From contig CANDYV010000003.1 of the NCBI GenBank assembly GCA_947425085.1, forward strand, positions 1 to 47,928: a DNA stretch of 47,928 bases, in the 5' to 3' direction. Below are positions 14,952 to 32,550 of this stretch, piece by piece. A model generated the notes under the pieces. It made no database searches. It was not told the origin of the DNA and worked only from the letters and a program-made list of their open reading frames with translations. A program made the position numbers and the translations under genes. This stretch comes from an uncultured Candidatus Saccharibacteria bacterium (GTDB taxonomy: Bacteria; Patescibacteriota; Saccharimonadia; Saccharimonadales; Saccharimonadaceae). Positions within the stretch are counted from its first letter, which is position 1; each line of letters starts with the position of its first letter.

Positions 14952-14958
14952 GACCTTG

Positions 14959-15032: not shown

Positions 15033-15051
15033 CCGCTCGGCTCCTAGTCTT

Positions 15052-15146
15052 GTTCGGGTTTTTGAGGCATGTTCGGGTGCTGGATTTTGTTCGGGTTTGA
15101 AAAATGTTCGGGTTTTTGACGTTCGGTTTTTAAACTTTGTTCGGGT
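15052..15146 (+). repeat. GTTCGGGT iteron-like array in the dnaA-dnaN region
   Basis: GTTCGGGT occurs exactly at 15052, 15071, 15089, 15106 and 15139, with a variant GTTCGGTT at 15121. Steps are 19, 18, 17, 15 and 18 bp. The array lies upstream of the DnaA-box cluster and has no coding explanation. Origin-binding-protein iterons usually have such regular spacing. Confidence 0.7.
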
Positions 15147-15152
15147 GTTTTC

Positions 15153-15382: not shown

Positions 15383-15499
15383 GGAAGTTTTGGAGCGATA
15401 CCGCGGAGATTTGCGGAGAAGGAAAAAGTGCGAACATTTAAAAGTAGCGTACAGAAGGTTAGAAGGTAGATTTGGAGTTATTAGAAGAAAGGAAGAAAT

Positions 15500-16606: not shown

Positions 16607-16630
16607 AATTGTAGTACGGGGCTATGGAAA

Positions 16631-17665
16631 ATGGTGATTAGAAGTGTAAAACTCACGAATTTTCGGTCGCACGAGAGTTTTGTGCTTCAGTGTAATCCAC
16701 AGACGACAATGATTATTGGGGAAAACGGTTGTGGAAAAACTTCGGTTCTGGAGGCGATTTATGAGGCCTTACAGGGGAAAAGTTTTCGGGCGGTAGATCG
16801 GGAGATTGTGCGGCGGGGGGCGGAGTTTTATCGGGTGGAGCTGGAGTATGAGGATGGGCGGAAGGTGGTGGCGATATATGATGCTGGGTCGGCGAAGAAG
16901 GAGTTTTTGGCGGAAGATAAAAAGTCAAAACGGTTGCCGAAGAAGGCAAAATATCCGATTGTATTGTTTGAGCCGGATGACCTACATTTAGTCGGGTCGA
17001 GTCCGGTGAGTCGGAGGAATTATTTTGATCGAGTTTTTGGGCAGTTGTCGGAAAAGTATAATACGGCGCTTTTGAGGTATAATAAGGCGCTCAGGCAGCG
17101 GAACGAGTTGCTGAAGGACGAGGGGGTGCGGCAAGAGGATTTGTTTTCTTGGGATGTGCTTTTGACGCGGCATGGGGCGGAGCTTGCGGAGGCGCGGCGG
17201 GGGTTTGTCGAGGAGATAAATAAGAGGTTTACGGAAGTTTATCGGTCGATTGCGGAAAATGAAGATGAAGTTTTGTTGTCATATGAGAGTTCGGTGCGGT
17301 CGGAAAGTGAGTTTTTGGCGCGATTGATGGCGGATTTTCCGCGTGATTCCCTACTTGGGCATACGAGTTTCGGAGTGCACCGAGATAACTATGAGTTTAT
17401 TTTTAATGGAGCGGGAGCGGACGGATCGGCGAGTCGGGGTGAAGTACGGTCGAGTGTGTTGGCGCTGAAGTTTATTGAGGCAGAGATGGTGGTGTCGGTT
17501 TTGGGGCGGAGGCCGGTGGTGCTGTTGGACGATGTATTTTCTGAACTCGATGAGACGCGGCAGAAATGTCTCGTGAGGAATTTTCAGGAGAATCAGATTA
17601 TATTGACCAGCGTGAGTGGGCAAAATAATCTAGACAGTTGTATCGCTCTAAAGAAAATACGATAA
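16631..17665 (+). CDS. recF: DNA replication and repair protein RecF
   Basis: RecF is an SMC-like ATPase that loads RecA at single-strand gaps with RecO and RecR. The 344-aa protein has MVIRSVKLTNFRSH at the start, Walker A GENGCGKTS (30-38), the ABC-type signature region near YEFIFNGAG...SRGEVRSS, and Walker B PVVLLDDVFSELD. It follows dnaN closely and converges on the 928-aa membrane protein gene 24 nt away. No clear terminator hairpin is visible in that gap. Confidence 0.95.
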   Translation: MVIRSVKLTNFRSHESFVLQCNPQTTMIIGENGCGKTSVLEAIYEALQGKSFRAVDREIVRRGAEFYRVELEYEDGRKVVAIYDAGSAKKEFLAEDKKSKRLPKKAKYPIVLFEPDDLHLVGSSPVSRRNYFDRVFGQLSEKYNTALLRYNKALRQRNELLKDEGVRQEDLFSWDVLLTRHGAELAEARRGFVEEINKRFTEVYRSIAENEDEVLLSYESSVRSESEFLARLMADFPRDSLLGHTSFGVHRDNYEFIFNGAGADGSASRGEVRSSVLALKFIEAEMVVSVLGRRPVVLLDDVFSELDETRQKCLVRNFQENQIILTSVSGQNNLDSCIALKKIR

Positions 17666-17689: not shown

Positions 17690-20476
17690 TTATGCGGCGT
17701 AACTGCGGTTGCGGACGTCGGCGTAGATGATGTATTGGTGTTGGGCGATGAGAGGCTGCTCATAGCTGTTTTGTTGATCGAAGTCTGGCGCGAGATCTTC
17801 GCGGAGGGTTTCGGCGATCTCGTTGCCGGTTGGAGTCGGTTCGTTATTCATGGCGATACGGGTACCGGCGTCATAGTCGTTGAGAAAATCCGAATAATCA
17901 ATGATTGCAATAAGAGTTTCGGCGCTTTCTTTGGTCATGCCGGTATAATGAGCTATAATACCGGCAGGAGAAGTGTCGAGTGGGTTTTCTTTGTCGTATT
18001 GTTCTTCGTAGGCGGTGACGGGATTTTTACCTTCTTCATAGGCGCCCATTTGTTCGAGGATGCGTTGGTCTTCGATGTAACGTTGGTAGTATTTCATTTC
18101 GGAGTCCCAATATGGGTTCTCTGTGCTATTGGAACAGTTTTTGCCGTTTACCCAGCCTTGAACGCCATCGTCGAGGCCCTTAATGCCGTTAATGATATTG
18201 GGAATGTCGCTTAGAATAGGAATGCTATTAAGGATGGTATTGCCGACTTCAAATTGACTAAGGATATTATTATCTGCAATCCCAAAAGGCGTGTCGCGAT
18301 TGTCGCAATAAGAAACATAGTAGGCGAGATTGGATTTTTTCTGAATCGTACAATTTCCGTCATTATCGCAATCTAGTCCTGGCGTGGTATTATTGCTGGC
18401 ATACGAACTTCCCTTCCCCATAAGGACTGCCGTGTAGGTTGCGTCGTCGGGGGCTAAGTTAAGAGTGTCGGTTGCGGTAGTTGTGACAGGGTTGCAATAA
18501 ATATCTCCAACAGCACCAATTCCCTCTAAATCCGGGCAATCGCCAAATGTAGTCATGTAGGAGCTTCCCTCTCCTTCGGCTGAGACTCGTCCAGTAAGGG
18601 AGGCGATAGCGGTTGATGTGGTGCGTAGAAGCGAGGAGACGGCGGTTGTTTTTGTATTGACCATAGTGGGGAGCAAACTGTAGGCGATGCTGCCGAAGAA
18701 AGTGTTACGGTTTGTGATATCGAATGGACTGAGATTCTTGCGATCAACTTCTGCGTCCCAAGCTAGCACGGTATTGTTTGCTTGATTGTAGGCGATGGCG
18801 GCGTCTTTTGATGATAAGGATTGTCCGCTACCTGAACGGCCTAGGCGCGTATTTGCGGCAGAGGCGCCCTTCGTGAAGAGTTCGCCGGCGGGGATGCCCG
18901 TTGCGGTTTCGAAGACGTTCGTGAATAGCGATTGAGCAATAGCGGGAATAGCAAAACTCAATAAAGCGCCAACAGCTGAAGCAACAGCAAAGGAAGCGGC
19001 AGTCTTAAGTAGGAATCCGCCAATAATTTTTACAACACCTCCGCCGCCTATAGTAACCGCGAGTGAAGCGACGCCGTCAGCGATTTGGGCTAAAGCGCAG
19101 CCGGCGATTGAAATGCCACGCATTTTAAGAACATTGCCAAATGTAGTAGAAATGCGTTCTAGAGAATAGTTTTTTGTCGTCGCTTTATTGGCCGGTGCGT
19201 TAGCGAGTATTAGTTGCATACCATTAGACTGAAGTGGAGCGCCCGTAACTTGTTCTTTTTCGGCTTGAGATTCGTCGCCATTGAAGGATAATTTATCCAT
19301 ATTTGGAACTTCCGTGGTTTGGCTAGTGCTGAGAAAGTTAAGAACTTCGTTGATAGCTGAGGCATCACCGTAGCCAGCTTTCATTTTGATGATATTTTCC
19401 ATGAATCCCATAAAATAATTGATAGATTGATAGATCTCATTAGCAGCGACGGCCATGGAAATCATATTACCGAGTTTTAATAGGGTACATCCTTGGTTTA
19501 GGATGCCAGTGATTTTAGCAACGGAACCGGCGACGTTGCTGACGTAACTTCTGGCGCTAGTTTCAGCGGCGTCGACAGAGGTGCCGGATTTATTGGTGCT
19601 GCTGCTTGTGCCTACGTCACCTGGCTCCTCCATGACGGGGATTTTATTGCCGTTGCCGTCCGTTTTAAAGCTTCCGTCTGGGTTAGTTTCATAGACTGGG
19701 TTACCGCTGGCGTCGGTTTTTTGGACGTCATCTCCACGAGTGACGCTGGCGACGTCGGTGCTGTTGCCCTCGAATTTCTTAATCATAGTATCATCGAACG
19801 CAGCTCTGTCGGTATCGGAATTGCCAGTTTGTCGATAGCTACTAAATAGATTTCGACTAAGGCCGAGCTTTTGATATATTTTATTGGCGATATTATCAAA
19901 GAATGAGGCGACGCGTCCGCGTTTTGCGCTACTATAAGCGTCGCGGAATTCGGCATTAGTGCTATATAGGTCGGCGAAATCGTCGGCGCTAACAGGAGTG
20001 GTAATGTCACCATGCTTCCAGTTGAGGACGGTATTACTACCGGAACCGCTGACTTCGATGCCAAAACTTGCGAGACGCTTCTTAAAGGAGTTTGACATGT
20101 GGTTATATTTTGTGACGCCAGTAAAACCATTTGTACTGGTGGCGTTCCCCTTCATCATGAATCCAGTTAAACGAACGGTACGTAGAGTGTTACTAGCGTA
20201 TTGTGTATCTGTGGCGTCGGTAAAAAGAGCTTCCATAGCTGGAGCTAGGAGTGAATTTGAGCTGCCAAGAAAAGCTCCGCCTCCGGCAAAGAGGGCGATA
20301 ATGACAAAAATGGTGGCGATTCCTTTCTTCTTACCTTTGGTTTTGGTTTTGGTTGGGGTTTCGCGGCCGGAGCCGGTGTAGAGGGATTCTTCGTTCGCAG
20401 CGCTACGCGCCAGAGCGCCATTTTCGGCGTTCCGGAAGGCGGAGACGGCATTAGTGACTGCGACGGGGGTTGCCAT
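17690..20476 (-). CDS. Large membrane protein of the T4SS-like locus, unknown function
   Basis: A 928-aa protein with a basic cytoplasmic N-terminus (KTKTKGKKKG, 43-52), a TM helix at ~52-70, and a long extracytoplasmic part. Further hydrophobic stretches lie in its middle (around ISMAVAANEIY, and a glycine/alanine-rich region GGGGVVKIIGGFLLKTAASF). The remainder is Asn/Thr-rich with several cysteines, such as CDNDGNC and CNPVT, suited to disulfides outside the cell. It is the last gene of the minus-strand VirB4 operon, 54 nt after virB4. I do not recognise a family. By position it may be a VirB6/TrbL-like or channel-associated component. Start MATPVAVTNAV is the only sensible ATG. Confidence 0.7.
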   Translation of the reverse strand: MATPVAVTNAVSAFRNAENGALARSAANEESLYTGSGRETPTKTKTKGKKKGIATIFVIIALFAGGGAFLGSSNSLLAPAMEALFTDATDTQYASNTLRTVRLTGFMMKGNATSTNGFTGVTKYNHMSNSFKKRLASFGIEVSGSGSNTVLNWKHGDITTPVSADDFADLYSTNAEFRDAYSSAKRGRVASFFDNIANKIYQKLGLSRNLFSSYRQTGNSDTDRAAFDDTMIKKFEGNSTDVASVTRGDDVQKTDASGNPVYETNPDGSFKTDGNGNKIPVMEEPGDVGTSSSTNKSGTSVDAAETSARSYVSNVAGSVAKITGILNQGCTLLKLGNMISMAVAANEIYQSINYFMGFMENIIKMKAGYGDASAINEVLNFLSTSQTTEVPNMDKLSFNGDESQAEKEQVTGAPLQSNGMQLILANAPANKATTKNYSLERISTTFGNVLKMRGISIAGCALAQIADGVASLAVTIGGGGVVKIIGGFLLKTAASFAVASAVGALLSFAIPAIAQSLFTNVFETATGIPAGELFTKGASAANTRLGRSGSGQSLSSKDAAIAYNQANNTVLAWDAEVDRKNLSPFDITNRNTFFGSIAYSLLPTMVNTKTTAVSSLLRTTSTAIASLTGRVSAEGEGSSYMTTFGDCPDLEGIGAVGDIYCNPVTTTATDTLNLAPDDATYTAVLMGKGSSYASNNTTPGLDCDNDGNCTIQKKSNLAYYVSYCDNRDTPFGIADNNILSQFEVGNTILNSIPILSDIPNIINGIKGLDDGVQGWVNGKNCSNSTENPYWDSEMKYYQRYIEDQRILEQMGAYEEGKNPVTAYEEQYDKENPLDTSPAGIIAHYTGMTKESAETLIAIIDYSDFLNDYDAGTRIAMNNEPTPTGNEIAETLREDLAPDFDQQNSYEQPLIAQHQYIIYADVRNRSYAA

Positions 20477-20530
20477 AGCTTGTTATTTTTGACCTTTCTT
20501 CATGATTTCGACCTTTTAGTGATTTTGCGT

Positions 20531-22366
20531 TTACCTTCGGGCGCCTCCGGGGCGGGTGGTGATGAGGGATTCTTCGGTTTCGGAAGCGATGATTTGGATG
20601 TGGACGTGGTTGGCGCCGGCGAAGAAGAGGCCTTGGCCGACTGGGAAGTTGGCGAGGCGTTTCTTTTCTTCGTTGGTGAGCTTAAAGACATCGGAAAGAA
20701 CATCGACGGCGGACGCGGATTGTTTCAGAAGGAGTTGCATGGAGGAGTTTGCGACGATAGCGCGGCCCATTTTGCTACTCATAAAGTCTTCAACATCTTG
20801 AGTGATAGTGGTGAGACCGAGGTAGTATTTGCGGGCGCGCTTGGCGAGACTGAAGAGGAAGTTTGCGGAATCGTCGTATTTCATGAGCTGCCAGGCCTCA
20901 TCGACGATGAGGAGGCGGCGTTTTTGGTCGGCGCGGACAATATTCCAGATGTGGGAAAGAATAATATACATAGCGACGGGGCGAAGCTCGTCCTCGAGGT
21001 CGCGGATATTAAAGACGACCATTTGGTTGTTGATATCGATGTTGGACTGTTGTGAGAAGATGCCCGCGAAAGTACCAGTCGTGTATTTGCGAAGACGTTG
21101 GGCGAGTTGTGGGCCGGTGCCGCCCATATGGAGGAGGGTATCGTAGAGATTGATGATGGTCGGCGGAGTGGCTTGGTGGGTGAGGGGATCGCTGGTGATG
21201 CCGGCGCGAGCGTAAGTATCAATGAGGGCTTGGTCGAGGTCAGCCTCTTCGTTGGCGGTTAGAGCCGGGACGACTTGGCCGTTGGCGGCGACTTGGTTGC
21301 CGCCAAGCATGAGGCGGAAGAGGCCGTGGAGGGTAACAAGGTTAGCGCGGAGAGCGTCATTGGCATCTTCGCTATCGACGACTTTCGGGAGGTCGAAGGG
21401 GTTAATGCGGACGTCGGAGTTGAGCGAGAGGCGAATATAACTGCCGCCGACAGCGTCGCAGAGCTTCTGGTACTCGTTTTCTGGGTCGATAATGAGAATT
21501 TCTGCGCCGATCATCATGGAGCGAAGAGCTTCAAGTTTGACGGCGAAAGATTTACCAGCACCGGATTTCGCGAAGACGACGAGGTTGGCGTTTTCTAGGC
21601 TGAAGCGGTCGAAGATGACGAGGCCGTTGTTGTGCATGTTGATACCGTAGAGGATGCCCTTTTCTTGGGTGAGGTCGGCGGAAGTGAACGGGAAGCTGGT
21701 CGAGATGGCGCCGGTGTTCATGTTGCGACGAATTTGGAGTTGGTCGGTACATTGCGGCATGGTGCTGTTCATTCCCTGCTCTTGCTGGGCGCTGGCGACT
21801 TTCGAGAAAATCATTTGTTGGCCGAGGAGGGTTTCGACTTTGTGTTGGACGAAGTTAAGCTCGTCGAGAGAGTCGGCCCATAAAGTAATATATAGACCAA
21901 AGCGGAAGAACTTTTCGGCACCGACTTGGAGCTTGTCGCGGAGTTCCTCGGCATCATTGATGGCGGCTTCGATTTCTGGGTCACGGACTTTACCGCGTTC
22001 GGCATTGACTTGGTAACTAGCTTCGAGCTGGGTGACTTTTTTGCGGAGGTTTTTCATGACGACGGTCGTTTCGACAGGGTAGACATACATAGAAACGTCG
22101 AGAACTTCGTCGATGTTGATAAGGGAGGAAATCCAACCGGTATAAAGGGTGCGGGGATAGCCGTAGACGTAGATGGTTCGGCCGTATTTCGTGCCAAGAC
22201 GGAAATAGCCAGAGTGGATTTCGATGGAGCTTGGGGAGATGAGATCGCGGAGGGTGGTGATGCCCTGTTCAAAGGCTTGCTGAACTTCAGCCTCTTCGGC
22301 GTGTTGGGATTGGATGGCGATTTCGGCGGCAGTAAGTTGTCTCGCGGCTTTATTTTTTCTAGGCAT
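20531..22366 (-). CDS. virB4: VirB4/TraC-type secretion ATPase
   Basis: VirB4 ATPases power type IV secretion and pilus assembly at the inner face of the membrane. The 611-aa protein carries Walker A AKSGAGKSFAVK (~266-277) and a following ILIIDPENEY. Walker B is LLIVDEAWQLM, and a Q-rich motif LTTITQDVEDF comes near the C-terminus. The N-terminal ~230 residues form the usual CagE/TrbE-like domain. The start at MPRKNKAARQ overlaps the end of the upstream gene by 8 nt, indicating translational coupling; a longer in-frame extension would lie wholly within that gene. No VirD4 or relaxase is nearby, so a conjugative role is not supported. Confidence 0.95.
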   Translation of the reverse strand: MPRKNKAARQLTAAEIAIQSQHAEEAEVQQAFEQGITTLRDLISPSSIEIHSGYFRLGTKYGRTIYVYGYPRTLYTGWISSLINIDEVLDVSMYVYPVETTVVMKNLRKKVTQLEASYQVNAERGKVRDPEIEAAINDAEELRDKLQVGAEKFFRFGLYITLWADSLDELNFVQHKVETLLGQQMIFSKVASAQQEQGMNSTMPQCTDQLQIRRNMNTGAISTSFPFTSADLTQEKGILYGINMHNNGLVIFDRFSLENANLVVFAKSGAGKSFAVKLEALRSMMIGAEILIIDPENEYQKLCDAVGGSYIRLSLNSDVRINPFDLPKVVDSEDANDALRANLVTLHGLFRLMLGGNQVAANGQVVPALTANEEADLDQALIDTYARAGITSDPLTHQATPPTIINLYDTLLHMGGTGPQLAQRLRKYTTGTFAGIFSQQSNIDINNQMVVFNIRDLEDELRPVAMYIILSHIWNIVRADQKRRLLIVDEAWQLMKYDDSANFLFSLAKRARKYYLGLTTITQDVEDFMSSKMGRAIVANSSMQLLLKQSASAVDVLSDVFKLTNEEKKRLANFPVGQGLFFAGANHVHIQIIASETEESLITTRPGGARR

Positions 22367-23384
22367 TTGGTTTCTCTCCTTTACGAACATAAGTGGTGGC
22401 GAGTTTAGAAAAGTCGACGAGCGGTTCACGGACGGCGGTGTCGGGGTTATTAAAGTTGTAATACAATTCACTTAACTCGCGGGTGTTGAGGCGGACGGAC
22501 TGGATACCGATCTGGAAAAGACCGGAAACAACTGATTCGACGCGGTTATTAAGTTCGTCGACGGCTTTGTTGTAAGTGTCGCGATTGATGCGGGTGACTT
22601 CGGGGGCTTTTTTGCCGAAGGTTTTGAATAAGTTCTTGGTTTGGTTGACGAAAGCTTCGGCATCGGCAGAGCTGTAGTATGGGATGACGACGAAGAAAGA
22701 CTTGTCCATGATGTTTGCTTCTTGGGAAAGGAGGTCGATGAAGTTGATGTAATCATCCATGAGAACGCCGAGGAGCATGTTGTCGTTGTTGCGGCGAATA
22801 GTGGTTAAGCGGTCAATGTAAGGTCCGATGTCGACGCGTTGGGAGCGGACGAGAATCTGGACATTGAAGTTCAGAGAGTTTAAGAAGTTTTGGTAGCTAT
22901 ATTCGACGCCTTCGCGTTCTTGTTCGGACATGAGGTCGAAGTTGATAGATTGGCAAGCGACGACGGCGCGGAAAGAGCCGTCTTTCATGATGACGAGACC
23001 GTCGCGAAGTTCAGAAATGAGAAGGGTGGATTGGGTGGAGATGGGATTTTCGATGACTTTCGGGGCCTGGGCTTGACCGGAGAGGGCTTGTTGGCCTTCT
23101 GGGGCGGTGCTGGCGAGGGTTTGGGCGCCAGCAGTATTCATGGCAGCTTGTTGCTGAGTGAGAACTTGTTGTTGGTTGGTGCCGGATTGATACATCTGAG
23201 ATTGGGCAAATTGTTGGCCAGGTTGGTAACCCATGGGTTGCGGATTTTGTGGCGTGTTTGCTGGGGGCATGTTTCCGGCGGGCGGCATTGGCATATTAGC
23301 AGGCATAGGAGGCATGACTGGCTGAGGCTGAGTCCCCTGCTGGGCGGGAACGTTGAATTGGCCTGGATTAGTTTGTGGGTTCAT
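22359..23384 (-). CDS. TraC-like VirB4 N-terminal-type protein
   Basis: A 341-aa protein. The first ~110 residues are a Pro/Gln/Met-rich low-complexity region. Residues ~110-341 form a compact domain beginning NPISTQSTLLISELRDGLV, with SFRAVVACQSINFDLMS. This pattern matches the N-terminal domain that precedes the ATPase in VirB4/TraC proteins, here encoded separately. The gene overlaps virB4 by 8 nt. In Gram-positive conjugative systems such a TraC-like protein accompanies VirB4 and PrgI. It probably assembles with VirB4 at the membrane base of the apparatus. It has no Walker motifs. Confidence 0.7.
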   Translation of the reverse strand: MNPQTNPGQFNVPAQQGTQPQPVMPPMPANMPMPPAGNMPPANTPQNPQPMGYQPGQQFAQSQMYQSGTNQQQVLTQQQAAMNTAGAQTLASTAPEGQQALSGQAQAPKVIENPISTQSTLLISELRDGLVIMKDGSFRAVVACQSINFDLMSEQEREGVEYSYQNFLNSLNFNVQILVRSQRVDIGPYIDRLTTIRRNNDNMLLGVLMDDYINFIDLLSQEANIMDKSFFVVIPYYSSADAEAFVNQTKNLFKTFGKKAPEVTRINRDTYNKAVDELNNRVESVVSGLFQIGIQSVRLNTRELSELYYNFNNPDTAVREPLVDFSKLATTYVRKGEKPNA

Positions 23385-23409
23385 GATGTTGATGGCTCCT
23401 TAATGCTTC

Positions 23410-24366
23410 TTAGTGTAGTGATACGTAAACTTCGCTTTCGTTTTCTTCGCGGATGCGGTCGGCGGCTTTCTGGACGTCTTCGGTGGGTTGGGGATTGGGC
23501 TGTTGGTTGTTTTGTGGGTTTGTGGAGAAATCGACAGACTGTTGGTCCATGAGAGGGTCGTAGGCAGGGATACCGGCACTAGTGATTGGGGCTTGGGTTG
23601 GGAGGTCGGGCTGGATGACGACAGGAGATTCGAAGCCAGAGGTGGTGGCGGGAATACCGGAGGAGGTTAAGTTGTTATCGTTGTTGATGCCAAAACCAGC
23701 ACGGGGTTGGATGACGCGTTGGCCGGGGAGCTGGATCATATTATTCTTGGCGATAGTATTGTCGTAGTTGTATTCGGAAGTTTCAATAGCATTACGCATT
23801 TGATCGACGACAGCGGCACGGCGTTCCTGCTGTTGCTGGACCATGATGTTGTTGAGATTATAATTATCGCTGCGGTTAGCGTCGAACATGTCGGTTGTGT
23901 TATAAGCTTCGGCGTAGAATTCGTCTTTCATGGTGGTACTGGCGTTTTTGATGGCATGGCCTTCGGAGTCGACGATTTCAGCTAAGAATGAGAGGCGATG
24001 GCTGGCTTCTTCGCTAGAGAGGTCGCGAGCACGGGAGGCTTCGACTTGTTTCGGAGCGGTAATCAAGATGGTCGATTCGCTTTGGCCAGGGAGCCAGTAG
24101 CGCTTGTTGGGCTTTGTATAGAAAGATAGGAGGGCGGCGAGGTAAGTTTCCATCGGCTGATCCTTTTTCAGAGGAAGAGCAAGGGCGCCAAAAAAGATCA
24201 TGAATGGAACAGGAATGACAGCAAGAAGCGGAAAAAGTTGGAAAAGCGCAACGGCGAGCATGCCGCACCCAAAAACAATCATCAGGTAGATAAACTGACG
24301 GAAGCTAAACGGCCCAAGTAACTTATCGTCCGCCTCAACGTCCTGCGGAACTTTGTATGTTGCCAT
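23410..24366 (-). CDS. PrgI family protein (VirB3-like)
   Basis: This 318-aa protein begins MATYKVPQDVEADDKLLGPF, the PrgI-family start. Two adjacent TM helices follow (~26-45 and ~47-68), and then YLAALLSFYTKPNKRYWLPG. PrgI is the VirB3 equivalent of Gram-positive type IV systems and links the VirB4 ATPase to the membrane channel. Ordinary PrgI proteins are ~100-130 aa; here a ~200-residue Asn/Gln-rich cytoplasmic tail is added. TATAAT (24374-24379, minus) lies 7 nt before the ATG, so this gene has its own leaderless promoter, covered by a 10-bp inverted repeat. It is the first of four genes running through virB4. Confidence 0.88.
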   Translation of the reverse strand: MATYKVPQDVEADDKLLGPFSFRQFIYLMIVFGCGMLAVALFQLFPLLAVIPVPFMIFFGALALPLKKDQPMETYLAALLSFYTKPNKRYWLPGQSESTILITAPKQVEASRARDLSSEEASHRLSFLAEIVDSEGHAIKNASTTMKDEFYAEAYNTTDMFDANRSDNYNLNNIMVQQQQERRAAVVDQMRNAIETSEYNYDNTIAKNNMIQLPGQRVIQPRAGFGINNDNNLTSSGIPATTSGFESPVVIQPDLPTQAPITSAGIPAYDPLMDQQSVDFSTNPQNNQQPNPQPTEDVQKAADRIREENESEVYVSLH

Positions 24367-24392
24367 ATATATTATTATACATTATATATGGC
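24362..24392. promoter_or_regulatory. PrgI promoter inside a 10-bp inverted repeat
   Basis: GCCATATATA (24362-24371) and TATATATGGC (24383-24392) are perfect inverted arms. They enclose the minus-strand TATAAT (24374-24379), and the left arm contains the start codon. Binding by a repressor here would block both promoter and start. Confidence 0.5.
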
Positions 24393-24425
24393 AAAAGTGG
24401 GAAGGATTTTGTGAGGTTAGTTGAG

Positions 24426-27400
24426 TTAGTGAGCTGAGCGGTAAACAAGGTCGATTGCAGCTTGTTGGAGGTCATCGATAAGCTCGCGTTGCCGCTGGTA
24501 ATAGTCTGCAATTTGACTAATACCGTCTTCGGTGGAGCCTAGTTGCCGTTCTTTTTCGGATAGGTAGTAGATAATATCTTGAAGTTCACCAAGAATGTAA
24601 TCGTCATTGAGGGTTTCAACGGTTTCGAAGTATCCGGTTAAAGCGTCGGCAGCTTGTTCGAGCGATGAAGCGTATTGGCAGTAAATGTTGATATTAGTGG
24701 TGATGTTTTGAATATTGTTTCGCTCGGCGTAGTCTTGCTGGGCTTCTATGCTACGCATGAGGCTGTCGTAAGTACTATCGACGCCTTGACGGCCGGATTG
24801 CGGGCGAGGTGGATATGATCGGCCGCCACTGCCACCGGGGATATTTGAATTACTGGGTTGTGCGCTAGTGCCAGGGTTGCCTTGGAGGTTTTGGACTTGA
24901 GATTTGGCGGCGCGATACTTGTCTTGGAGGATGCGCGGATCATCACCAGCAAAGAAGTCTTGGTTTTTGGTGCCAGCGCCAAGGATGTCTTCGAAGCTGG
25001 TGCTTGGATCCATGTTTTTGGTACCAACGTCGGTGAGGGTGTCGATGAGTTTCTTGAGAGCTTCGAGCGTATCTGGCTTTTGGTTTTCGAGGACGCCTGG
25101 AGACATACTACGATTCATCATGCCAGCAAGTTTGACGGCAGCCTTTGGCAAGATATTGTGTTTAATGTAATTCTTGCGGTCTTCGAGAGTGGCTTCACTA
25201 GCGCTAACTTCTTGCCAGACGGGACTACCATTTTCGTCTTGACTAAGGCGGAAGCCCTTAAGGGCTTGGCCATTGACGTTGCGATAGTTCATAACATCAG
25301 AATCTGGGAAGAAGAATTCGAAGGCGCTGACGCGATTGCCATTGTTGTCGAAGAGTTGTTCGTCATAGATTTTCTTGAAGTTTTGCTCGAAGAGCTGGTC
25401 ATCGACACTAGAGAGAAGCATGCGCCAGGTATCAATAGCGTAGCCATCGTTTTGGAGGAATGGGCCAGCTTTGGAGGCGACGCTGAGGCTTTGGAGGTTA
25501 GCGATATTATATTGGCCGATAGATGTGACGTAACCCATATTGGTTTGGGCGGTGATCATTGGCGTAACTTCAGCAGCGTGTTCTTTGTACTTGCTAGCTA
25601 ACATAGCAGCGGTAATGGTGCTATGATAGCGGCGCAGAATACCGGTCTGTTCTTCTGGAGCATGCTTGACGCCGATTTGTGTGAGATAGCGGCGGTTGAT
25701 TGGGTCGCCGATATTGATATCGTCTGTGAGCAGCTCTTTCATATAGCCAGCATCATCTTCGTAAACGCGCTGAATAAGTTTATTATTGTCGTCGGTAATA
25801 TCGAAGTACCGGATGCGTTTATAGGAAGCTTTTTCGTTTGCGGAAAGAGCGTCGTATTCGGCGCGAGTGAGTTCTTTGCCACTGTCTTTGTCGACCCAGA
25901 TATAATCTTGCCATTCGTCATAGTGTTCGCCTGGCAGTAGTCGGTGTTGGATGTTTTCGACGACCTTACCGTCTTTATTGGTAGCAAAACCGTCGTCGGT
26001 CATGCCGGCTTTATCATAGACCATGGCACGGAATTGAGGCTTTTTGATGCCAAATTTGTTGATGATGATGCGAGCTTCGCTGCGGCGACGTGATTCAATT
26101 TGGGCGTTACCGACGATAACCTGGCCCATGATTGAGGCTTCGCCAGTATGCCCGAGACTGCCGGCGGCGCCTTTAATGAGGCGATTGAATTGGTACGGGT
26201 TGGTGTCGTGATTGGTGGTTGCGTCCATATACTGGCTAAGTAGCCATTCTTGGTCGGCTTGAGCTTCATTTGCAGTTAGAAATTGCTGCTTCATGGTGTT
26301 GAGGTAGGCTTCACCGTGGGCATCAGAAAGGCGGCTGGCGCCGGAGCCGGAGAAGTGACGACCGTAGGCAGAAAGCGTATTACGATAAGCCGCATCAGCG
26401 ACGCCAACGCGGGTCTCATAGAGAGCTGCGGTTTTGGCGTTCTTGGTGTAGCGGTTGGCGCGCTTCGACCAGGTGTCGTTGCCGTCCTTATCGACTCCTG
26501 TGCTAGAGGAGGCGGTAATGAGGGCGCGTTCATGGGCTTTACCGTGGCGGATTTCGAGTGAGTTCTTGGTGTCGAGCTCACGGAGTTCGCGGCGGTAGTC
26601 GAGGTAGCGGCGGAGTTTGGCGCCAGGCATCATGGAATTAGCGAGGTAGCGTTGGCGGTTAAGTTCTTTGTGGCTGAGGGACCAGCCGGCGATACCGCGT
26701 TCGGCCGGGGCGGCGAGTCTGCGCAGGCTGGCGTTGAGGGTGCCGAGGATGGTGCCGGACATTTTCATGAGCGACCAGGAGAAGACGAGCGGGAAAATCT
26801 GGACGGCTATGCCGAGAATGAGGCCGAAGCCGTCGTGGGCGGAGGTGATGAGCGCCCAACCGGCGAGTTGAGAGGCGCCGAAGAGGAAGCTGAACATAGG
26901 GTAGAAAATAAGCATCTGAAAGAGGAGTTGCTTCCATTTTTGGAACCATTTTTCGGTGTTGGGGAGGAGGTAGGCGACAAAGGCGAGCGGAGAGATCATA
27001 ATGAGGAGGGCGACGAGGGCTTGGCGAGCGGCGATGGTCAGGAGGCCAGAGACGATGGCGATGACTGCACCGAGGAGAACTGGAAGGAGCATCCAGAAGA
27101 GTGCGGCGCCACCGCCGGTCGCACCGATGGCGATACCAGCGATGCCGACGCCGGATATGATTGAGGTGATGATTTCGCCGAGAGGGACGTTGGCGATTTC
27201 GCTAGCTTGGCCATTGGCGATGACGGATTGTTGAATGCCGGTAAAGAATTCGCGGAGAGTGGATCCGATGATATTACTGAGGTCGACGGCGAGAGAACAG
27301 ATGACGAAGCTGAGGTTGACGAGGACGACGGCGATGATAAGGCGAGGGAGGATGCGTTTGACGCCGTAGTTGTTGATGCCAAAGCCGGTGAGCTGAGAAT

Positions 27401-27974
27401 AAATGACAATAAGGAGGAAGATGACGAAAACGATGTTGGTGATGTTGCGGGCGTATTGCCAGACGAGGTAGATGGGCGAGTCGGCTTCCATACTAAGGGG
27501 CGGAACAACAGAAAGACCATCTACGACGTTGTAGATAGCATCGATGAATTTGGCGATGACGCCGGTGGTTGGGCAGACAATCCAAGCGAGGGCACCGACT
27601 TGGCCTTCGCAGGTGTTAGGTTGGTCTTCTGTGCCAGGGTTTTCTGGGTTGTCGGGGTCGGCGGGGGAGTCGCTATCATCAATTTCAACGTTGTTTCCAG
27701 GGTTACTGGGGTCGCTAGGTGTGTCGTCGATGTTGACATTATTCCCGTTGTTGTCTGGGTTGGGGTTGTCAATCTCGATGTTGTTGCCAGGGTTGGTGTT
27801 CTGATTATTATCCTCCGGCTCGTCGTCGAGTTGGATATTGTTCCCTGATGTGTCGTTTTCGACGGCGTAAACGTAAGAACTGGGAGTATTCATGAAAACG
27901 GTAGCAAAAATTGTGCCGAAAACCAATAAGATGGCGGACACAATCTTTGTAATTCTCGCAGTTAGGTTTTTCAT
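24426..27974 (-). CDS. VirB6/TrbL-like polytopic channel protein with long cytoplasmic tail
   Basis: A 1182-aa protein. A signal-like helix (~9-36, ending in YVYA) is followed by an Asn/Asp/Pro-rich extracytoplasmic segment (~40-120). That segment contains four repeats of the form GNN-[IV]-x-[IL]-[DE]D. Next come several TM helices (~190-430) with the LAVDLSNIIG and ITIAARQALVALLIMISPLAFVA-type sequence seen in TrbL/VirB6 channel proteins. About 700 soluble, charged residues complete it. The start at 27974 (MKNLTARITK) is chosen because the TATAAT at 28015-28020 (minus) overlaps an earlier in-frame ATG. It heads the minus-strand secretion locus and is divergent from the pilin genes. Confidence 0.82.
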   Translation of the reverse strand: MKNLTARITKIVSAILLVFGTIFATVFMNTPSSYVYAVENDTSGNNIQLDDEPEDNNQNTNPGNNIEIDNPNPDNNGNNVNIDDTPSDPSNPGNNVEIDDSDSPADPDNPENPGTEDQPNTCEGQVGALAWIVCPTTGVIAKFIDAIYNVVDGLSVVPPLSMEADSPIYLVWQYARNITNIVFVIFLLIVIYSQLTGFGINNYGVKRILPRLIIAVVLVNLSFVICSLAVDLSNIIGSTLREFFTGIQQSVIANGQASEIANVPLGEIITSIISGVGIAGIAIGATGGGAALFWMLLPVLLGAVIAIVSGLLTIAARQALVALLIMISPLAFVAYLLPNTEKWFQKWKQLLFQMLIFYPMFSFLFGASQLAGWALITSAHDGFGLILGIAVQIFPLVFSWSLMKMSGTILGTLNASLRRLAAPAERGIAGWSLSHKELNRQRYLANSMMPGAKLRRYLDYRRELRELDTKNSLEIRHGKAHERALITASSSTGVDKDGNDTWSKRANRYTKNAKTAALYETRVGVADAAYRNTLSAYGRHFSGSGASRLSDAHGEAYLNTMKQQFLTANEAQADQEWLLSQYMDATTNHDTNPYQFNRLIKGAAGSLGHTGEASIMGQVIVGNAQIESRRRSEARIIINKFGIKKPQFRAMVYDKAGMTDDGFATNKDGKVVENIQHRLLPGEHYDEWQDYIWVDKDSGKELTRAEYDALSANEKASYKRIRYFDITDDNNKLIQRVYEDDAGYMKELLTDDINIGDPINRRYLTQIGVKHAPEEQTGILRRYHSTITAAMLASKYKEHAAEVTPMITAQTNMGYVTSIGQYNIANLQSLSVASKAGPFLQNDGYAIDTWRMLLSSVDDQLFEQNFKKIYDEQLFDNNGNRVSAFEFFFPDSDVMNYRNVNGQALKGFRLSQDENGSPVWQEVSASEATLEDRKNYIKHNILPKAAVKLAGMMNRSMSPGVLENQKPDTLEALKKLIDTLTDVGTKNMDPSTSFEDILGAGTKNQDFFAGDDPRILQDKYRAAKSQVQNLQGNPGTSAQPSNSNIPGGSGGRSYPPRPQSGRQGVDSTYDSLMRSIEAQQDYAERNNIQNITTNINIYCQYASSLEQAADALTGYFETVETLNDDYILGELQDIIYYLSEKERQLGSTEDGISQIADYYQRQRELIDDLQQAAIDLVYRSAH

Positions 27975-28014
27975 GATAGACTTCCCAATAGACCCTATTT
28001 CAGGGCATACAACC

Positions 28015-28020
28015 ATTATA
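28015..28020 (-). promoter_or_regulatory. -10 box of the VirB6-like gene
   Basis: TATAAT on the minus strand lies about 40 nt before the chosen ATG and gives a short leader. The divergent pilin promoter is near 28155-28183 (TTGGTT-N17-TAAGAT). Confidence 0.5.
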
Positions 28021-28189
28021 TCACACATAAGCGCTTTAGTCAACCCTTTTCTTCGAAAAAGTGTTGCTACGGGGCGGTGTCTCGGAAAAGGTAATAAATT
28101 GTCTTTCCCTCGGCTTCTATCGCAGAGCAATTCTTTTTTCTGGAGTTTGGGATATTGGTTTTTTGCGGGAATAATGATAAGATAGGGGT

Positions 28190-28924
28190 ATGAGACAGAA
28201 GATTTTGGGATTTCTTGGGGCGGTTTTGGTTGGAATTAGTTGTTTTGCGGGGGTTTTGACGGTGTCTGGTGCGACGGCAGAGTCGGCGTGGGCTGAAGTG
28301 ACGATAACGACTGGTGGCACGGATAACTGTGCAAAGAACTATTTGGGCTTTCGGCCGTGGTTTTATGATACGTCCGGTAAGATTTGTAGTGGTGGGAATA
28401 TAGTTCAGCCGGATAAAAATGATCAAGATGCGATTACGGTGTTTGTCTGGACGATTATTTTGAATATTACGTTTGATTTGACTTTGGCGGTGGGATATAT
28501 TGCCGTGGCAATGGTGATTTACGGCGGGTATTTATATATTATGGCGCAAGGTGATCCGGGCAAGGCGGCGAAGGGCCAGCATACCTTGGTGTCTGCTGTG
28601 ATTGGTGTGGTAATTGCGATGGGGGCGTCGGTGATCGTGAACACGGCGCAGGTGATTTTAGGCTTAAACAATGGCGTGCCGACGACGGTGAGTACGACAA
28701 CTCAGATTCAAAATATTTTTTCGTGGGCATACTCGATGGCGGGGCTAGTTGCTGTAGTGTTTATTATCAAAGGTGGGGTGGAATATATGATTTCACGTGG
28801 GGATCCGGGGCGGGTGCAGAAGGCGACGCGTAGCCTGGTTTATGCAGTGGTTGGGTTGGTGATTGTGATTTTAGCGGCGGTAATAACGAGTGTAGTAATG
28901 GGGGCGATTGGAGAGGCATTGTAA
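28190..28924 (+). CDS. Tandem T4SS-pilin-domain protein
   Basis: This 244-aa exported protein has a signal peptide (1-~35, ending AWA) and an N-terminal segment with two cysteines. Two successive T4SS_pilin modules follow. Each has a pair of hydrophobic helices around a GG-x-[FYE]-...-GDPG[KR] turn: YGGYLYIMAQGDPGK, then KGGVEYMISRGDPGR. Ordinary VirB2/TrbC-type pilins have one module, so this looks like a fused dimer. The -10 candidate TAAGAT (28178-28183) lies 6 nt before the ATG. It is the first of four pilin-domain genes on this strand and is divergent from the VirB6-like gene. It may be a structural pilin or a membrane adaptor. Confidence 0.8.
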   Translation: MRQKILGFLGAVLVGISCFAGVLTVSGATAESAWAEVTITTGGTDNCAKNYLGFRPWFYDTSGKICSGGNIVQPDKNDQDAITVFVWTIILNITFDLTLAVGYIAVAMVIYGGYLYIMAQGDPGKAAKGQHTLVSAVIGVVIAMGASVIVNTAQVILGLNNGVPTTVSTTTQIQNIFSWAYSMAGLVAVVFIIKGGVEYMISRGDPGRVQKATRSLVYAVVGLVIVILAAVITSVVMGAIGEAL

Positions 28925-29305
28925 ATGAAAAAGATTGGATTAGTTTTAGCGGGAGTTTTGGCGATGGCCGGGTTGGTTGTGCAGTTTGTGGCAGAGCCGG
29001 TTTTGGCGGTGAACTCGGATATCTGTAACGGCCCGTTTGATGATGAACAGAAGGCGGCGGCAGGGTGTGGGACGCAAAAAAGTGCAGGAGCGGTGGCAAC
29101 GACTATTATTAATGTAGTGCTGGGGTTTTCCGGGGTGATTGCGGTGGGCGTAATGATTTATGGCGGTTTTTTGTTTCTAAGTAGCTCGGGGGATGCAGGT
29201 AAGGTGAAGCGAGGGCAGGATGCGATTAAGTATGGGTTGATCGGGCTTGTCGTGGCGTTGCTTGCGTATGCAATTGTGGCATTTGTGAGCATGGCGATTT
29301 CTTGA
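28925..29305 (+). CDS. T4SS pilin-domain protein
   Basis: A 126-aa VirB2/TrbC-type pilin. It has a signal peptide (~1-27, ending VLA), a short extracytoplasmic segment with two cysteines (DICNGPF and AGCGTQ), then two TM helices around YGGFLFLSSSGDAGKVKRG. The ATG directly follows the TAA of the tandem pilin gene, so they are co-transcribed. The stop codon is TGA, evidence for the standard genetic code. Confidence 0.85.
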   Translation: MKKIGLVLAGVLAMAGLVVQFVAEPVLAVNSDICNGPFDDEQKAAAGCGTQKSAGAVATTIINVVLGFSGVIAVGVMIYGGFLFLSSSGDAGKVKRGQDAIKYGLIGLVVALLAYAIVAFVSMAIS

Positions 29306-29400
29306 TGATTTCGTGGCGTTTTCGGGGAGAAAATGCTAGACATTTGAAGGTTCGTGTTGTATTATAAGAAGTAAGAGTAATTAACAAATAAGGGAGAATT

Positions 29401-29796
29401 ATGAAGAAACTTATTTTTAACATTTGCGCGGTGGTGATGACTGTGCTTGGCTTGGGTGGCGTTGCGGCTTTGTCGCCGGTTGTGGCTGAGCCTGCGTATG
29501 CGTTGAACGCATCAACTGGTAGCCCATCTGATTTTGTTTCGAGCTCTAGGCCTAATAGTGCTACGAATAAGGACTTGATGGACATGATTAAACTAATTAT
29601 TAACGTTGTTCTTGGTGTGGTCGGTATCGTCGCTGTCGTGATGATGATTATGGGGGGTATTAGCTTTATTACTTCGCAAGGTGATGCTGGGAAGGTGACT
29701 AAGGCTCGCAACACGATTCTTTATGGCGTAGTAGGTTTGATTGTTGCGCTTTTGGCGTTTGCGATTGTGAACTTCGTTTTGACAAATATCAAATAA
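29401..29796 (+). CDS. T4SS pilin-domain protein
   Basis: This 131-aa pilin has a signal peptide ending AYA (~36), a Ser/Asn-rich mature N-terminus and two TM helices around MGGISFITSQGDAGKVTKA. It has a good ribosome-binding site (AGGGAGA) and a TATAAG-type -10 about 35-45 nt upstream. It may therefore be transcribed separately from the two preceding pilins. Codon choice is richer in T-ending codons than in most neighbours, as in highly expressed genes, which would suit a major pilin. Confidence 0.85.
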   Translation: MKKLIFNICAVVMTVLGLGGVAALSPVVAEPAYALNASTGSPSDFVSSSRPNSATNKDLMDMIKLIINVVLGVVGIVAVVMMIMGGISFITSQGDAGKVTKARNTILYGVVGLIVALLAFAIVNFVLTNIK

Positions 29797-29808
29797 GGAC
29801 AGATTCTA

Positions 29809-30363
29809 ATGAAACTTAAACGAGCTATTTTGTCGCTTATTGCTTTGGCTGGTTTGGGTGTTTCTCTAATGACGACGGGGACGGCTTATGCGGCCGTCTC
29901 TTGTCCGACTGGGACCATTCACGCTGGTCAGTCGAAGCCGACGTATGCGGAATGCAATATTGACTCAAATGCAACAGCGGACACGTTGATGAATACAGTT
30001 AAAAATGTAATTAATGTAATTCTTGGTCTTTTAGGTGTGGTTGCAGTAGTCGTGGTTATTCTGGGTGGTTTTACGTTTATCACTTCGCAGGGGGATGCCG
30101 GTAAGGTTATGAAGGGGCGAAATACGATTTTGTGGGGGGTGGTTGGTCTGATTGTGGCGCTTTTGGCGTTTACGATTGTGAACTTCGTGCTGAAAGGAGT
30201 ATCGAGTCCGACTAATAACGGTCCAGGGAATAATGTACAGGTTGATCAAGGTGACAGCGGATCTGGAAATCGCGTCGAGGTAGATGGTAATAACGGTCCG
30301 GGGAATGATGTTCAGGTCGATGGGAATAGGGGGCCTGGCAACCGTGTTGAAGTTGATAAGTAA
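29809..30363 (+). CDS. T4SS pilin-domain protein with C-terminal GN-x-V-x-VD repeats
   Basis: A 184-aa protein with a signal peptide ending AYA, two cysteines (VSCPTG, AECNID) and one pilin module (LGGFTFITSQGDAGKVMKG). A ~50-residue tail (~135-184) carries four imperfect units of PGN-[NDR]-V-[EQ]-VD. No ordinary pilin has such a tail. The same unit occurs in the N-terminal extracytoplasmic segment of the VirB6-like protein across the divergent promoter. It begins 12 nt after the preceding pilin gene with AAGGA upstream, and a terminator follows at 30396-30427. Confidence 0.85.
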   Translation: MKLKRAILSLIALAGLGVSLMTTGTAYAAVSCPTGTIHAGQSKPTYAECNIDSNATADTLMNTVKNVINVILGLLGVVAVVVVILGGFTFITSQGDAGKVMKGRNTILWGVVGLIVALLAFTIVNFVLKGVSSPTNNGPGNNVQVDQGDSGSGNRVEVDGNNGPGNDVQVDGNRGPGNRVEVDK

Positions 30364-30395
30364 TCGTCTTTCAGATTAAAGTATTTATTGTAGTG

Positions 30396-30427
30396 AAGAT
30401 GACCCTTACATTTGTTGGGGTCATCTT
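30396..30427 (+). terminator. Terminator of the pilin operon
   Basis: AAGATGACCC (30396-30405) and GGGTCATCTT (30418-30427) form a 10-bp stem, followed by a moderately T-rich stretch. Confidence 0.7.
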
Positions 30428-30525
30428 TGTTGGATTGTTTGGCTGGTTGAGATTTGCGCAGCGGGGTGAGCGGATGGGGTGGTTTCGATTCTTCGCGGGC
30501 GGGTTATGAATTGTATTTTTTCAAA

Positions 30526-30556
30526 ACTAAAAACCGCCCGGAGGGCGGAGTTTAGT
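30526..30556 (-). terminator. Intrinsic terminator of the hsp20 gene
   Basis: On the minus strand, CCGCCC-TCC-GGGCGG is followed by TTTTTAG. Outer arms ACTAAA and TTTAGT extend the stem. It lies about 65 nt beyond the hsp20 stop codon. Confidence 0.8.
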
Positions 30557-30620
30557 GTGTGAGTAACGACTTTGTTGACTGGGTTAACTTGTCGTTTTTT
30601 GTCGAACGACTTTTGGAAAA

Positions 30621-31121
30621 TTACTGGATAGCGATCTTCTTCGGAGCGTCTTGTTGTTCCTTTTCGAAGGAGATGGTGAGGACGCCGTCTTTGAGCTCGG
30701 CTTTGACCGTGCCTTCTTCTTCTTTCACGGGAACAGGGAGCGCGATGGTGCGAGAGAATTCGCCCCAGTAACACTCTTGAATGTGCCAAGCGGTGGTATT
30801 TTCATCTTCCCCGCCGCTTAAAATGCCGGAAATTGTCAGGATGTTGTCGGAAATTGTCACGTTTAGATCTGACTTAGAAATGCCAGCCGTGCGAGCCTTA
30901 ACAACTAGTTTGTCCGCGGTTTCGTAGACATCTACAGCGAGTTGTCCTGGAAAATCGTCGGTATCTTCCCACCCATCATTTACCCCCGGATCTGATGGTT
31001 CATCAACGTTGAGGATAGCCTTTTCATTTCGGTCGATGACTGGCGCCGGTTCGGCGTCATCGAGGAATGCACGAGCTAAATCGTCTTCCATCAGCATATC
31101 GGCATCATTAGTGCGAGCCAT
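30621..31121 (-). CDS. Small heat-shock protein, Hsp20/alpha-crystallin family
   Basis: Hsp20 proteins are ATP-independent holdases that bind unfolding proteins. The 166-aa protein has a variable acidic N-terminus (1-60). An alpha-crystallin domain follows (~65-155), with PGQLAVDVYETADKLVVKA, the TISDNILTISG strand pair and a C-terminal ELKDGVLTISFEK. The start at 31121 (MARTNDADML) is chosen for its GGAGG site 9-10 nt upstream; an upstream in-frame ATG runs back into the promoter. TATAAT on the minus strand (31156-31161) overlaps a plus-strand TATAAT. There is no CIRCE element here, unlike groES. Confidence 0.92.
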   Translation of the reverse strand: MARTNDADMLMEDDLARAFLDDAEPAPVIDRNEKAILNVDEPSDPGVNDGWEDTDDFPGQLAVDVYETADKLVVKARTAGISKSDLNVTISDNILTISGILSGGEDENTTAWHIQECYWGEFSRTIALPVPVKEEEGTVKAELKDGVLTISFEKEQQDAPKKIAIQ

Positions 31122-31192
31122 TGCTTGAATTACCTCCGTTATATTGTTATGCTTTATTATAATGGTATTTTGTAGTAAAATCAAGAGATATT

Positions 31193-32029
31193 ATGGGTTT
31201 CATTGTAAAAAATACAACAAAATGGGGGCTACTTGACCTGGTTTGCCCGCACACCTGTAGGGGTTGTGGACGACTGGGAGCGGTGCTTTGCGAGTGTTGT
31301 AAAAATAACATAAAATCAACGCGTGAGGCGATTTGTCCGCTCTGTAAGCGTTCGGTTGCGATGAGGGCGGGAAAATGTCCGGGCTGCGGTCTGGTGCGTG
31401 AAGATGAGCGCGAGGAGGGCTATGGTGACGGAGTGGGGCGGGAGTGGGTGTGTCCGGATTGTGAAGTTCCCTTTTGCTGGTTGGGCGTGGTGGGTTGGCG
31501 CGAGGGCGCGCTGGCGAAGTTGGTCAAGGATTTTAAATATAAGTCGGTGCGGGCGGCGGGAGAAGTTTTGGTGGACTTTTTAGATGAGCGGATCCCGAAG
31601 GATTTTGGGTTTTTGGATTTTGGTGTGGGCGATGCTAGTGAGGTCGCGATGAGGGAAGGCGGCTTGGAGGTGGTGGTTGTGCCGTTGCCGACGATTGGGC
31701 GGCACGTGCGAGAGCGGGGGCTGGATCATACGGCGATTTTGGCGAGGAAGTTGGCGAAGCGCAGGGGGTGGAAATATGAACGGGTGTTGGGCCGAGCGAC
31801 GGATGTGGTGCAGGTGGGCACGAAAGCGGTAGCACGGAAGGCGCAGGCGGAGAAGACGTATGAGGTTGTGCGAGAGGCGAGTGGGGAGAAGTTGTATTTG
31901 TTGGTGGATGATGTGTGGACGACGGGTGCGACGATGCTGGCGGCTGAAAAAGCTCTCAAGGAGGCGGGCGCGAAATGGATTGCCGGGGTGGCGCTTGCGA
32001 CGGGGAGAGGCGAAGTGGACGCGAGCTAG
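31193..32029 (+). CDS. comFC: ComF family phosphoribosyltransferase-like protein
   Basis: ComFC/GntX proteins assist DNA uptake or strand handling during natural transformation. The 278-aa protein has an N-terminal zinc-ribbon-like region with many CxxC pairs (CRGCG, CECC, CPLC, CPGCG, CPDC). The C-terminal PRTase domain carries the PRPP loop LLVDDVWTTGATM (~240-252). An extra ~60-residue segment separates them. A possible TAAAAT -10 (31176-31181) lies 11 nt before the ATG. It is divergent from hsp20 and near the pilin locus, so a competence role for that locus is reasonable, but no ComEC or ComFA is seen here. Confidence 0.88.
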   Translation: MGFIVKNTTKWGLLDLVCPHTCRGCGRLGAVLCECCKNNIKSTREAICPLCKRSVAMRAGKCPGCGLVREDEREEGYGDGVGREWVCPDCEVPFCWLGVVGWREGALAKLVKDFKYKSVRAAGEVLVDFLDERIPKDFGFLDFGVGDASEVAMREGGLEVVVVPLPTIGRHVRERGLDHTAILARKLAKRRGWKYERVLGRATDVVQVGTKAVARKAQAEKTYEVVREASGEKLYLLVDDVWTTGATMLAAEKALKEAGAKWIAGVALATGRGEVDAS

Positions 32030-32086
32030 AGGCTGACTTATCGATGGAGCAGCGAAGGGGCGTGATAGGCTGACTTGCGGGACAAA

Positions 32087-32110
32087 AAAGACGCCCTGGA
32101 GGGCGTCTTT
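32087..32110. terminator. Bidirectional terminator between comF and pilin genes
   Basis: AAAGACGCCC-TGGA-GGGCGTCTTT is a 10-bp stem. On the minus strand it is followed by a T6 tract, so it terminates the pilin gene at 32125 and perhaps comF. Confidence 0.8.
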
Positions 32111-32124
32111 GAGGTGTTTTTGCC

Positions 32125-32550
32125 TTAAGCTATGAATCGAGTAATTATTTGTAGGGCGGCTTCGTCGGTTTCTGGGGTGCTGTAGCTGCCGATGGTGTTC
32201 AAGACGAAACGGACGATAGCGTAAGCGAGGACGGCGATGATAAGACCGATAATAGCGTAGAGAATGGTGTTTTTGGCGTCGGTGATTTTCTTGCTGTCGC
32301 CGCCAGAGATGATGTAGCGGACGCCGCCCCAGATGAGCATGATGACAGAGAGTGCGCCAACGATGGCGAGGGCGATGCTGGTGAGCTGGGTGAAGACGCC
32401 ATTGTCGCCGATGAGCTCGGCGGGCATGCCTTCGGCGCGGGCGATTTCTGCACCTTCTTGAACGGTGAGAGCCATGGCTTTACCAGCGCAAAGCGTGAGG
32501 CAGGCGCCGATGCCAGTGATGATTTGTAGAACATTTTTCGCAAACTTCAT
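32125..32550 (-). CDS. T4SS pilin-domain protein (detached paralogue)
   Basis: This 141-aa protein has a signal peptide (~1-28, ending AMA) and two TM helices around WGGVRYIISGGDSKKITDAKN, the same architecture as the pilins at 28.2-30.4 kb. The turn reads GGDSKK where the others read QGDxGK. It stands alone on the minus strand. Its own TATAAT lies near 32595-32600, about 45 nt upstream of the ATG. It is probably a pilin or channel subunit of the same or a second apparatus. Confidence 0.82.
   Translation of the reverse strand: MKFAKNVLQIITGIGACLTLCAGKAMALTVQEGAEIARAEGMPAELIGDNGVFTQLTSIALAIVGALSVIMLIWGGVRYIISGGDSKKITDAKNTILYAIIGLIIAVLAYAIVRFVLNTIGSYSTPETDEAALQIITRFIA

Follow-up and report, generated by a model that had tools for sequence, protein, structure and literature searches.

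A chromosomal, origin-proximal type IV secretion locus of a Saccharibacterium, with a conserved motor and a variable membrane-anchored neighbour

The window analysed here, a stretch of 47,928 nucleotides from an uncultured Candidatus Saccharibacteria bacterium (genome of 717 kb in 45 contigs, 75% complete), contains at positions 17690-32550 genes for VirB4, TrsD/VirB4-N, PrgI/VirB3, a VirB6-like protein, a pilin array with a detached fifth pilin, ComF and the 928-residue protein P928 (Table 1), and this cluster adjoins dnaA-dnaN-recF. The cluster very probably encodes a type IV secretion system (T4SS) that is used in host association. The machine itself is already known as the MPF-FATA-like T4SS of Saccharibacteria (PMC10633639, PMC12102498), so that the central claim of an earlier, sequence-only reading of this DNA was a correct rediscovery. 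What is new is a conservation gradient across the locus, the finding that P928 is not VirB6-like, and the replacement of the P928 ectodomain in two pairs of close relatives.

Table 1. Features of the T4SS locus and its surroundings, with positions in the window
Feature	Position	Strand	Evidence or remarks
dnaA-dnaN-recF	13584..17665	+	origin-type neighbourhood
P928, 928 aa	17690..20476	-	cytoplasmic tail, TM helix 52-70, large ectodomain with cysteines; hypervariable among close relatives
VirB4 motor ATPase, 611 aa	20531..22366	-	Pfam, NCBIfam, PDB 4ag5, Walker motifs
TrsD / VirB4 N-terminal-domain protein, 341 aa	22359..23384	-	NF041427, 8.3e-7 (under that model's cut-off)
PrgI/VirB3 membrane anchor, long C-terminal extension, 318 aa	23410..24366	-	PF12666, 2.4e-11
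VirB6/TrbL-like polytopic platform protein, 1182 aa	24426..27974	-	TrbL matches of homologues, fold match
Promoter-like site, TTGACT-17-TATAAT, extended -10	28015..28043	-	11/12, consensus match only
VirB2-like pilin 1, two T4SS_pilin domains, 244 aa	28190..28924	+	Pfam
VirB2-like pilin 2	28925..29305	+	Pfam
VirB2-like pilin 3	29401..29796	+	Pfam
VirB2-like pilin 4, Gly/Asn/Asp-rich tail	29809..30363	+	Pfam
Small heat-shock protein (sHSP)	30621..31124	-	conserved neighbour, seen in relatives' loci
ComF-like phosphoribosyltransferase	31193..32029	+	conserved neighbour, seen in relatives' loci
VirB2-like pilin 5, detached from array	32125..32550	-	Pfam, 2.1e-13

A split motor, its membrane partners and a pilin array

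Searches against Pfam and NCBIfam supported the genes named in the sequence-only reading, all of which are present as open reading frames. VirB4 matched P-loop_TraG (1.5e-29) and the NCBIfam model conju_CD1110 (378 bits, cut-off 325), and its closest solved relative is the VirB4 component in PDB 4ag5 (E 7.8e-47). Its Walker A (GAGKS at 269) and Walker B (LLIVDE at 485) motifs are intact, as is required of the motor of any T4SS. The stop of the preceding gene overlaps the VirB4 start by 8 bases, and its product, which had been described as a separate TraC-like protein, is indeed present, but aligns only to the N-terminal part of VirB4 models and is best called, from this alignment, TrsD or the VirB4 N-terminal domain. 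The motor is split across these two genes. The VirB3 and VirB6 membrane partners that a T4SS requires adjoin VirB4, the former identified by the Pfam PrgI model and the latter by family and fold evidence.

The VirB6-like protein has about eight hydrophobic helices in residues 120-405, followed by a large C-terminal region. The window copy has no family match of its own, and its profile matched no PDB sequence; TrbL/VirB6 was nevertheless matched by 11 of 23 homologues (best 3.2e-4), and the five best PDB matches of a model of the core (mean pLDDT 72.7) were all TrwJ/VirB5-TrwI/VirB6 stalk entries of the R388 system (prob 0.91-1.00, E 0.025-0.12). Since weak sequence evidence and weak fold evidence concur, VirB6 is the best assignment, in agreement with what had been proposed for this protein. 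Although the TrwI-containing stalk complex of the R388 Trw T4SS is thus its top fold match, the window system differs from R388 in having no recognised outer-membrane core complex or VirB5 stalk, and in the large C-terminal extension of its VirB6. The top-scoring promoter-like site of the region lies upstream of the VirB6-PrgI-TrsD-VirB4-P928 gene run.

T4SS_pilin was found in five proteins (6.5e-25 to 2.3e-7), each above the curated cut-off, including the fifth, detached pilin that had been predicted. The array does comprise four genes, as had been counted, but it holds five pilin domains, two of them in pilin 1, which corresponds to two separate genes in three relatives (L068, L070 and L071). 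In another relative, a T4SS_pilin domain is fused to a VanY D-Ala-D-Ala carboxypeptidase (L098:9127-10140), the fusion gene being clustered with genes of VirB6-like, P928-like and lysozyme type.

The gene set described as MPF-FATA-like in Patescibacteria (VirB4, TrsD, PrgI, VirB6 and VirB2-like pilins near dnaA/dnaN) is therefore found here. The MPF-FATA conjugation machines of monoderms (pCF10, pGO1, CTn2) share its cytoplasmic and membrane parts, and its VirB4 falls in the CD1110 NCBIfam family; unlike those machines, the window T4SS has VirB2-like pilins and has no relaxase, linked coupling protein or recognised VirB8.

A core locus beside dnaA-dnaN-recF

Of the 195 genomes of the class, 181 have VirB4 and 182 the VirB6 core. 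The order VirB4-TrsD-PrgI-VirB6 holds, at times interrupted by one or two genes, in 17 loci that span genera, families and orders; a divergent pilin array is usual in these loci, and sHSP and ComF are often present. Among 80 close relatives, nearly all labelled Candidatus Saccharibacteria, TrsD-PrgI-VirB6 lies immediately upstream of VirB4 in 65, and most carry 3-6 pilin genes within the stretch covered. The adjacency to dnaA-dnaN-recF recurs with the same gene order in many relatives, and the T4SS block has been relocated away from recF in some members of the genus. Presence across the class and synteny indicate that the T4SS is a core system and not an accessory element, and they bear out the proposal that the locus is core and near the origin. 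GC skew is positive across the whole window (1-47928), on both sides of dnaA, and marks no origin.

The machine has been described before in relatives. Wang et al. (2023) reported that the corresponding locus of Candidatus Southlakia epibionticum ML1, SEML1_0006-0019, is essential, its pilins included, and that it encodes no recognisable coupling or relaxase proteins (PMC10633639). A survey of T4SSs in 3,035 genomes (Quinonero-Coronel et al. 2025; PMC12102498) described VirB4, TrsD, PrgI/VirB3, VirB6 and VirB2 arrays of 2-11 genes, and reported that relaxases are rare, that coupling proteins are unlinked, that VirD4 homologues occur across the phylum and that T4SSs lie close to dnaA/dnaN. The window system shares with these VirB4, TrsD, PrgI/VirB3, VirB6, the multi-pilin array and the lack of a relaxase or coupling protein in a cluster that is origin-proximal in many genomes. 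It differs from the Southlakia locus, by its published description, in having no peptidase or lysozyme after virB4; here P928 follows virB4 and ends 24 bases from recF.

Several further genes were observed around the locus or its counterparts. A 632-residue protein with NCBIfam lectin-type matches (window 6232-8130), a possible surface lectin, is encoded near LytR/CpsA/Psr and glycosyltransferase genes, and in one relative the gene immediately 3' of VirB4 encodes a ComEC-type Competence domain (L071:8054-9112). Contig C39 of the same bin (G000, L065:1-4524) carries a second copy of P928 (a fragment), VirB4, TrsD and PrgI, with identities to the window of 91% for VirB4, 67% for PrgI and 51% for P928 over its fragment. 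This copy is probably that of another strain in the bin, and a second locus of the same organism is disfavoured.

Family searches found no relaxase in the window and none in the cluster, as had been proposed, and no coupling protein linked to the cluster. The claim that a coupling protein is lacking holds for the window but not for the genome, in which a VirD4/TraG homologue lies after topA and near dprA on contig C6, unlinked to the T4SS cluster; all 195 genomes of the class have such a homologue. The genome-wide search for relaxases covered PF03432, which was found in 2 of the 195 genomes and not in this 75%-complete one, and Replic_Relax, found in 41. At the opposite end of contig C6, a Replic_Relax protein lies beside a second VirD4-like ATPase and a MT-A70 methylase in GC-richer DNA that looks like a separate mobile module (L063:268-4186); the same contig encodes a 1517-residue surface protein, a candidate for host binding, that combines InlB-type repeats with ricin-type lectin domains and three SLH domains (L063:9723-14276).

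That the locus is a remnant or active integrative conjugative element is a reading with some evidence on its side: every part derives from a conjugation machine, a tRNA-Ser adjoins the last pilin (32678-32770), and the genome holds the Replic_Relax and VirD4-like pair. The position beside dnaA-dnaN-recF is, however, conserved in many members of the class, no integrase was found among the profiled window genes, VirB4 is under stronger constraint than DnaN, and the Replic_Relax module lies on another contig and belongs to a family confined to the minority of genomes given above. We consider such an element barely credible and reject it, since class-wide synteny largely refutes it.

Conservation gradient and the P928 ectodomain

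Relatives differ less in VirB4 than in DnaA, DnaN or RecF, whereas VirB6, the pilins and P928 diverge fast. VirB4 of other loci in the family is 81-92% identical to the window protein, compared with 44-60% for DnaA, 47-59% for DnaN and 34-62% for RecF (some DnaA and RecF genes being cut by the end of the locus), 54-75% for TrsD, 42-67% for PrgI, 26-45% for VirB6 and 24-43% for full-length copies of P928. Median identities over 300 pairs of close relatives follow the same gradient (VirB4 87, TrsD 70, RecF 59, DnaN 59, P928 35), and among the VirB4 matches listed in the class identity runs from 93% down to 68%. The excess of VirB4 identity over that of DnaA, DnaN and RecF points to strong purifying selection on the motor; among the proteins compared, constraint is strongest on the motor and weakest on the parts that face outward.

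P928 was described from the window as a membrane protein, which its single clear TM helix bears out (weaker hydrophobic stretches lie at 472-514), and a structural comparison with VirB6 had been suggested for it. A model built from 33 family sequences (mean pLDDT 67, pTM 0.71) gave no VirB6 fold match, and TrbL was matched by 0 of the 33 members; with one clear TM helix, P928 is ruled out as VirB6/TrbL. The model matched no PDB fold at E<=1 and no viral fold at E<=0.001 (best E 0.038, TM <0.1), and its moderate confidence means that a fold match may have been missed. The profile matched no PDB sequence, the window copy has no Pfam match, and a PHROGs search returned no match; no cluster protein matched a VirB8-like family in Pfam or NCBIfam. 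In the family, a single clear TM helix joins a cytoplasmic tail, which varies, to an ectodomain whose cysteines are nearly always even in number; across the 33 sequences three residues, C330, D586 and P832, are invariant and C460 is nearly so.

Wall-hydrolase domains occur in a few members (M23 in 2, CHAP in 1, NlpC/P60 in 1) and not in the window copy, which gives no more than a hint of a VirB1-type hydrolase, an assignment that we do not adopt. A VirB1-type hydrolase is absent from the cluster here, though one adjoins it in relatives, where genes for a phage-type lysozyme and a PEGA-domain protein stand between P928 and recF; the window has neither, and the Phage_lysozyme2 protein of this genome, whose counterparts are adjacent to virB4/P928 in relatives, is encoded on contig C8.

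In two close pairs, the ectodomain of P928 has been replaced, while its N-terminus and the flanking genes stay alike. Between the window and L106, DNA identity is about 0.73-0.93 across PrgI, TrsD and VirB4, stands at 0.85 in the first 150 bases of P928, and drops to 0.47-0.61 from about window position 20316, that is, from codon 53, where the TM helix starts; VirB4 is 99% identical and P928 50%, in a comparison that covers about half of the gene because L106 ends within it. The L109-L110 pair covers P928 in full, with identities of 97 for VirB4, 94 for DnaN, 94 for DnaA, 89 for RecF, 99 for sHSP, 74 for VirB6 and 40 for P928 (75 at its N-terminus, 20-64 beyond). P928 is kept at 73-80% in other close pairs (L158-L159, L127-L129 and L163-L170). 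For the window P928, the L108 protein is a nearer match (54%) than the L106 one (50%), whereas VirB4 and TrsD show the reverse. The drop in identity and these discordant relationships are probably best explained by wholesale replacement through recombination; very fast divergence in some lineages is a less likely alternative.

Host contact, import and the place of P928

The role of the Saccharibacterial T4SS has been termed completely unknown (PMC11665869). We propose a chromosomal, non-conjugative T4SS, derived from MPF-FATA machines and equipped with its own VirB2-like pilins, that would serve the life of the Saccharibacterium on its host bacterium. VirB4, together with the separate TrsD N-terminal domain and anchored by PrgI/VirB3, would most likely power the extraction of pilins and their assembly on the VirB6 platform, and the product would be an envelope channel or a pilus at the contact with the host. 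P928 would be anchored beside the machine, presenting its large variable ectodomain to the host or the host wall, and the unlinked VirD4 homologue could feed substrates. In this scheme the gene identities, the intact motor motifs, the conservation, the synteny and the ectodomain replacement are observed, whereas the assembly of pili, what is transferred and in which direction, and what P928 does are inferred.

The T4SS may instead import DNA or nucleotides, as in the H. pylori ComB or Ced-like systems, taking in host DNA as a source of nucleotides, perhaps with the VirD4 homologue. Import has been proposed before (PMC12102498, PMC11665869), and ComF adjoins the cluster, as the class-wide VirD4 homologue does dprA-topA here; in Southlakia, however, the VirD4 homologue is non-essential whereas the T4SS is essential (PMC12102498), and the cluster holds no recognisable nuclease or DNA receptor. 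DNA uptake through ComEC probably does not account for the essentiality, since comEC is dispensable in Southlakia according to passages in PMC12857230 and PMC11665869 that cite PMC10633639. A fast-evolving exterior fits host contact, but import needs contact as well, so that this feature does not separate the two. On this evidence we regard import as rather unlikely.

Whether P928 belongs to the machine is a separate matter, and it may be no subunit, given that only 21 of 68 close relatives have it as the next gene after virB4 and that some of its paralogues lie outside the cluster. Relatives of P928 were found in 78 of the 195 genomes by a single-sequence search, often several per genome; with so fast-diverging a family, this count is a minimum. 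Some lie beside recF where the T4SS block has moved and others beside pheST genes; paralogues in L088, L090, L093, L094 and L096 share one setting, profiled in L090, where pheS-pheT and ABC/FtsX-like genes adjoin the paralogue. These positions would suit a fast-evolving surface protein, an adhesin or phage receptor, that is a mere neighbour of the T4SS and is exchanged by recombination. Yet the slot directly after virB4 recurs in several genera of the family, and the L098 copy lies between a VirB6-like gene and the pilin-VanY gene, with a lysozyme. We take the neighbour to be a serious contender, with somewhat less than an even chance of being right. That P928 adapts the T4SS to the surface of a particular host we put forward tentatively, and doubtful as yet; the stronger version, in which P928 is a previously unnamed protein of the Saccharibacterial T4SS locus whose ectodomain cassette, exchanged between strains, sets which host bacterium the machine, and with it the epibiont, can engage, seems improbable.

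The T4SS is among the few machines with demonstrated essentiality for epibiotic growth, and the opposition of a near-invariant motor to an exchangeable ectodomain indicates which part is likeliest to face the host. The presence of a VirD4 homologue across the class corrects the notion of Saccharibacteria without a coupling protein, and P928 is a specific candidate for a protein that determines host range.
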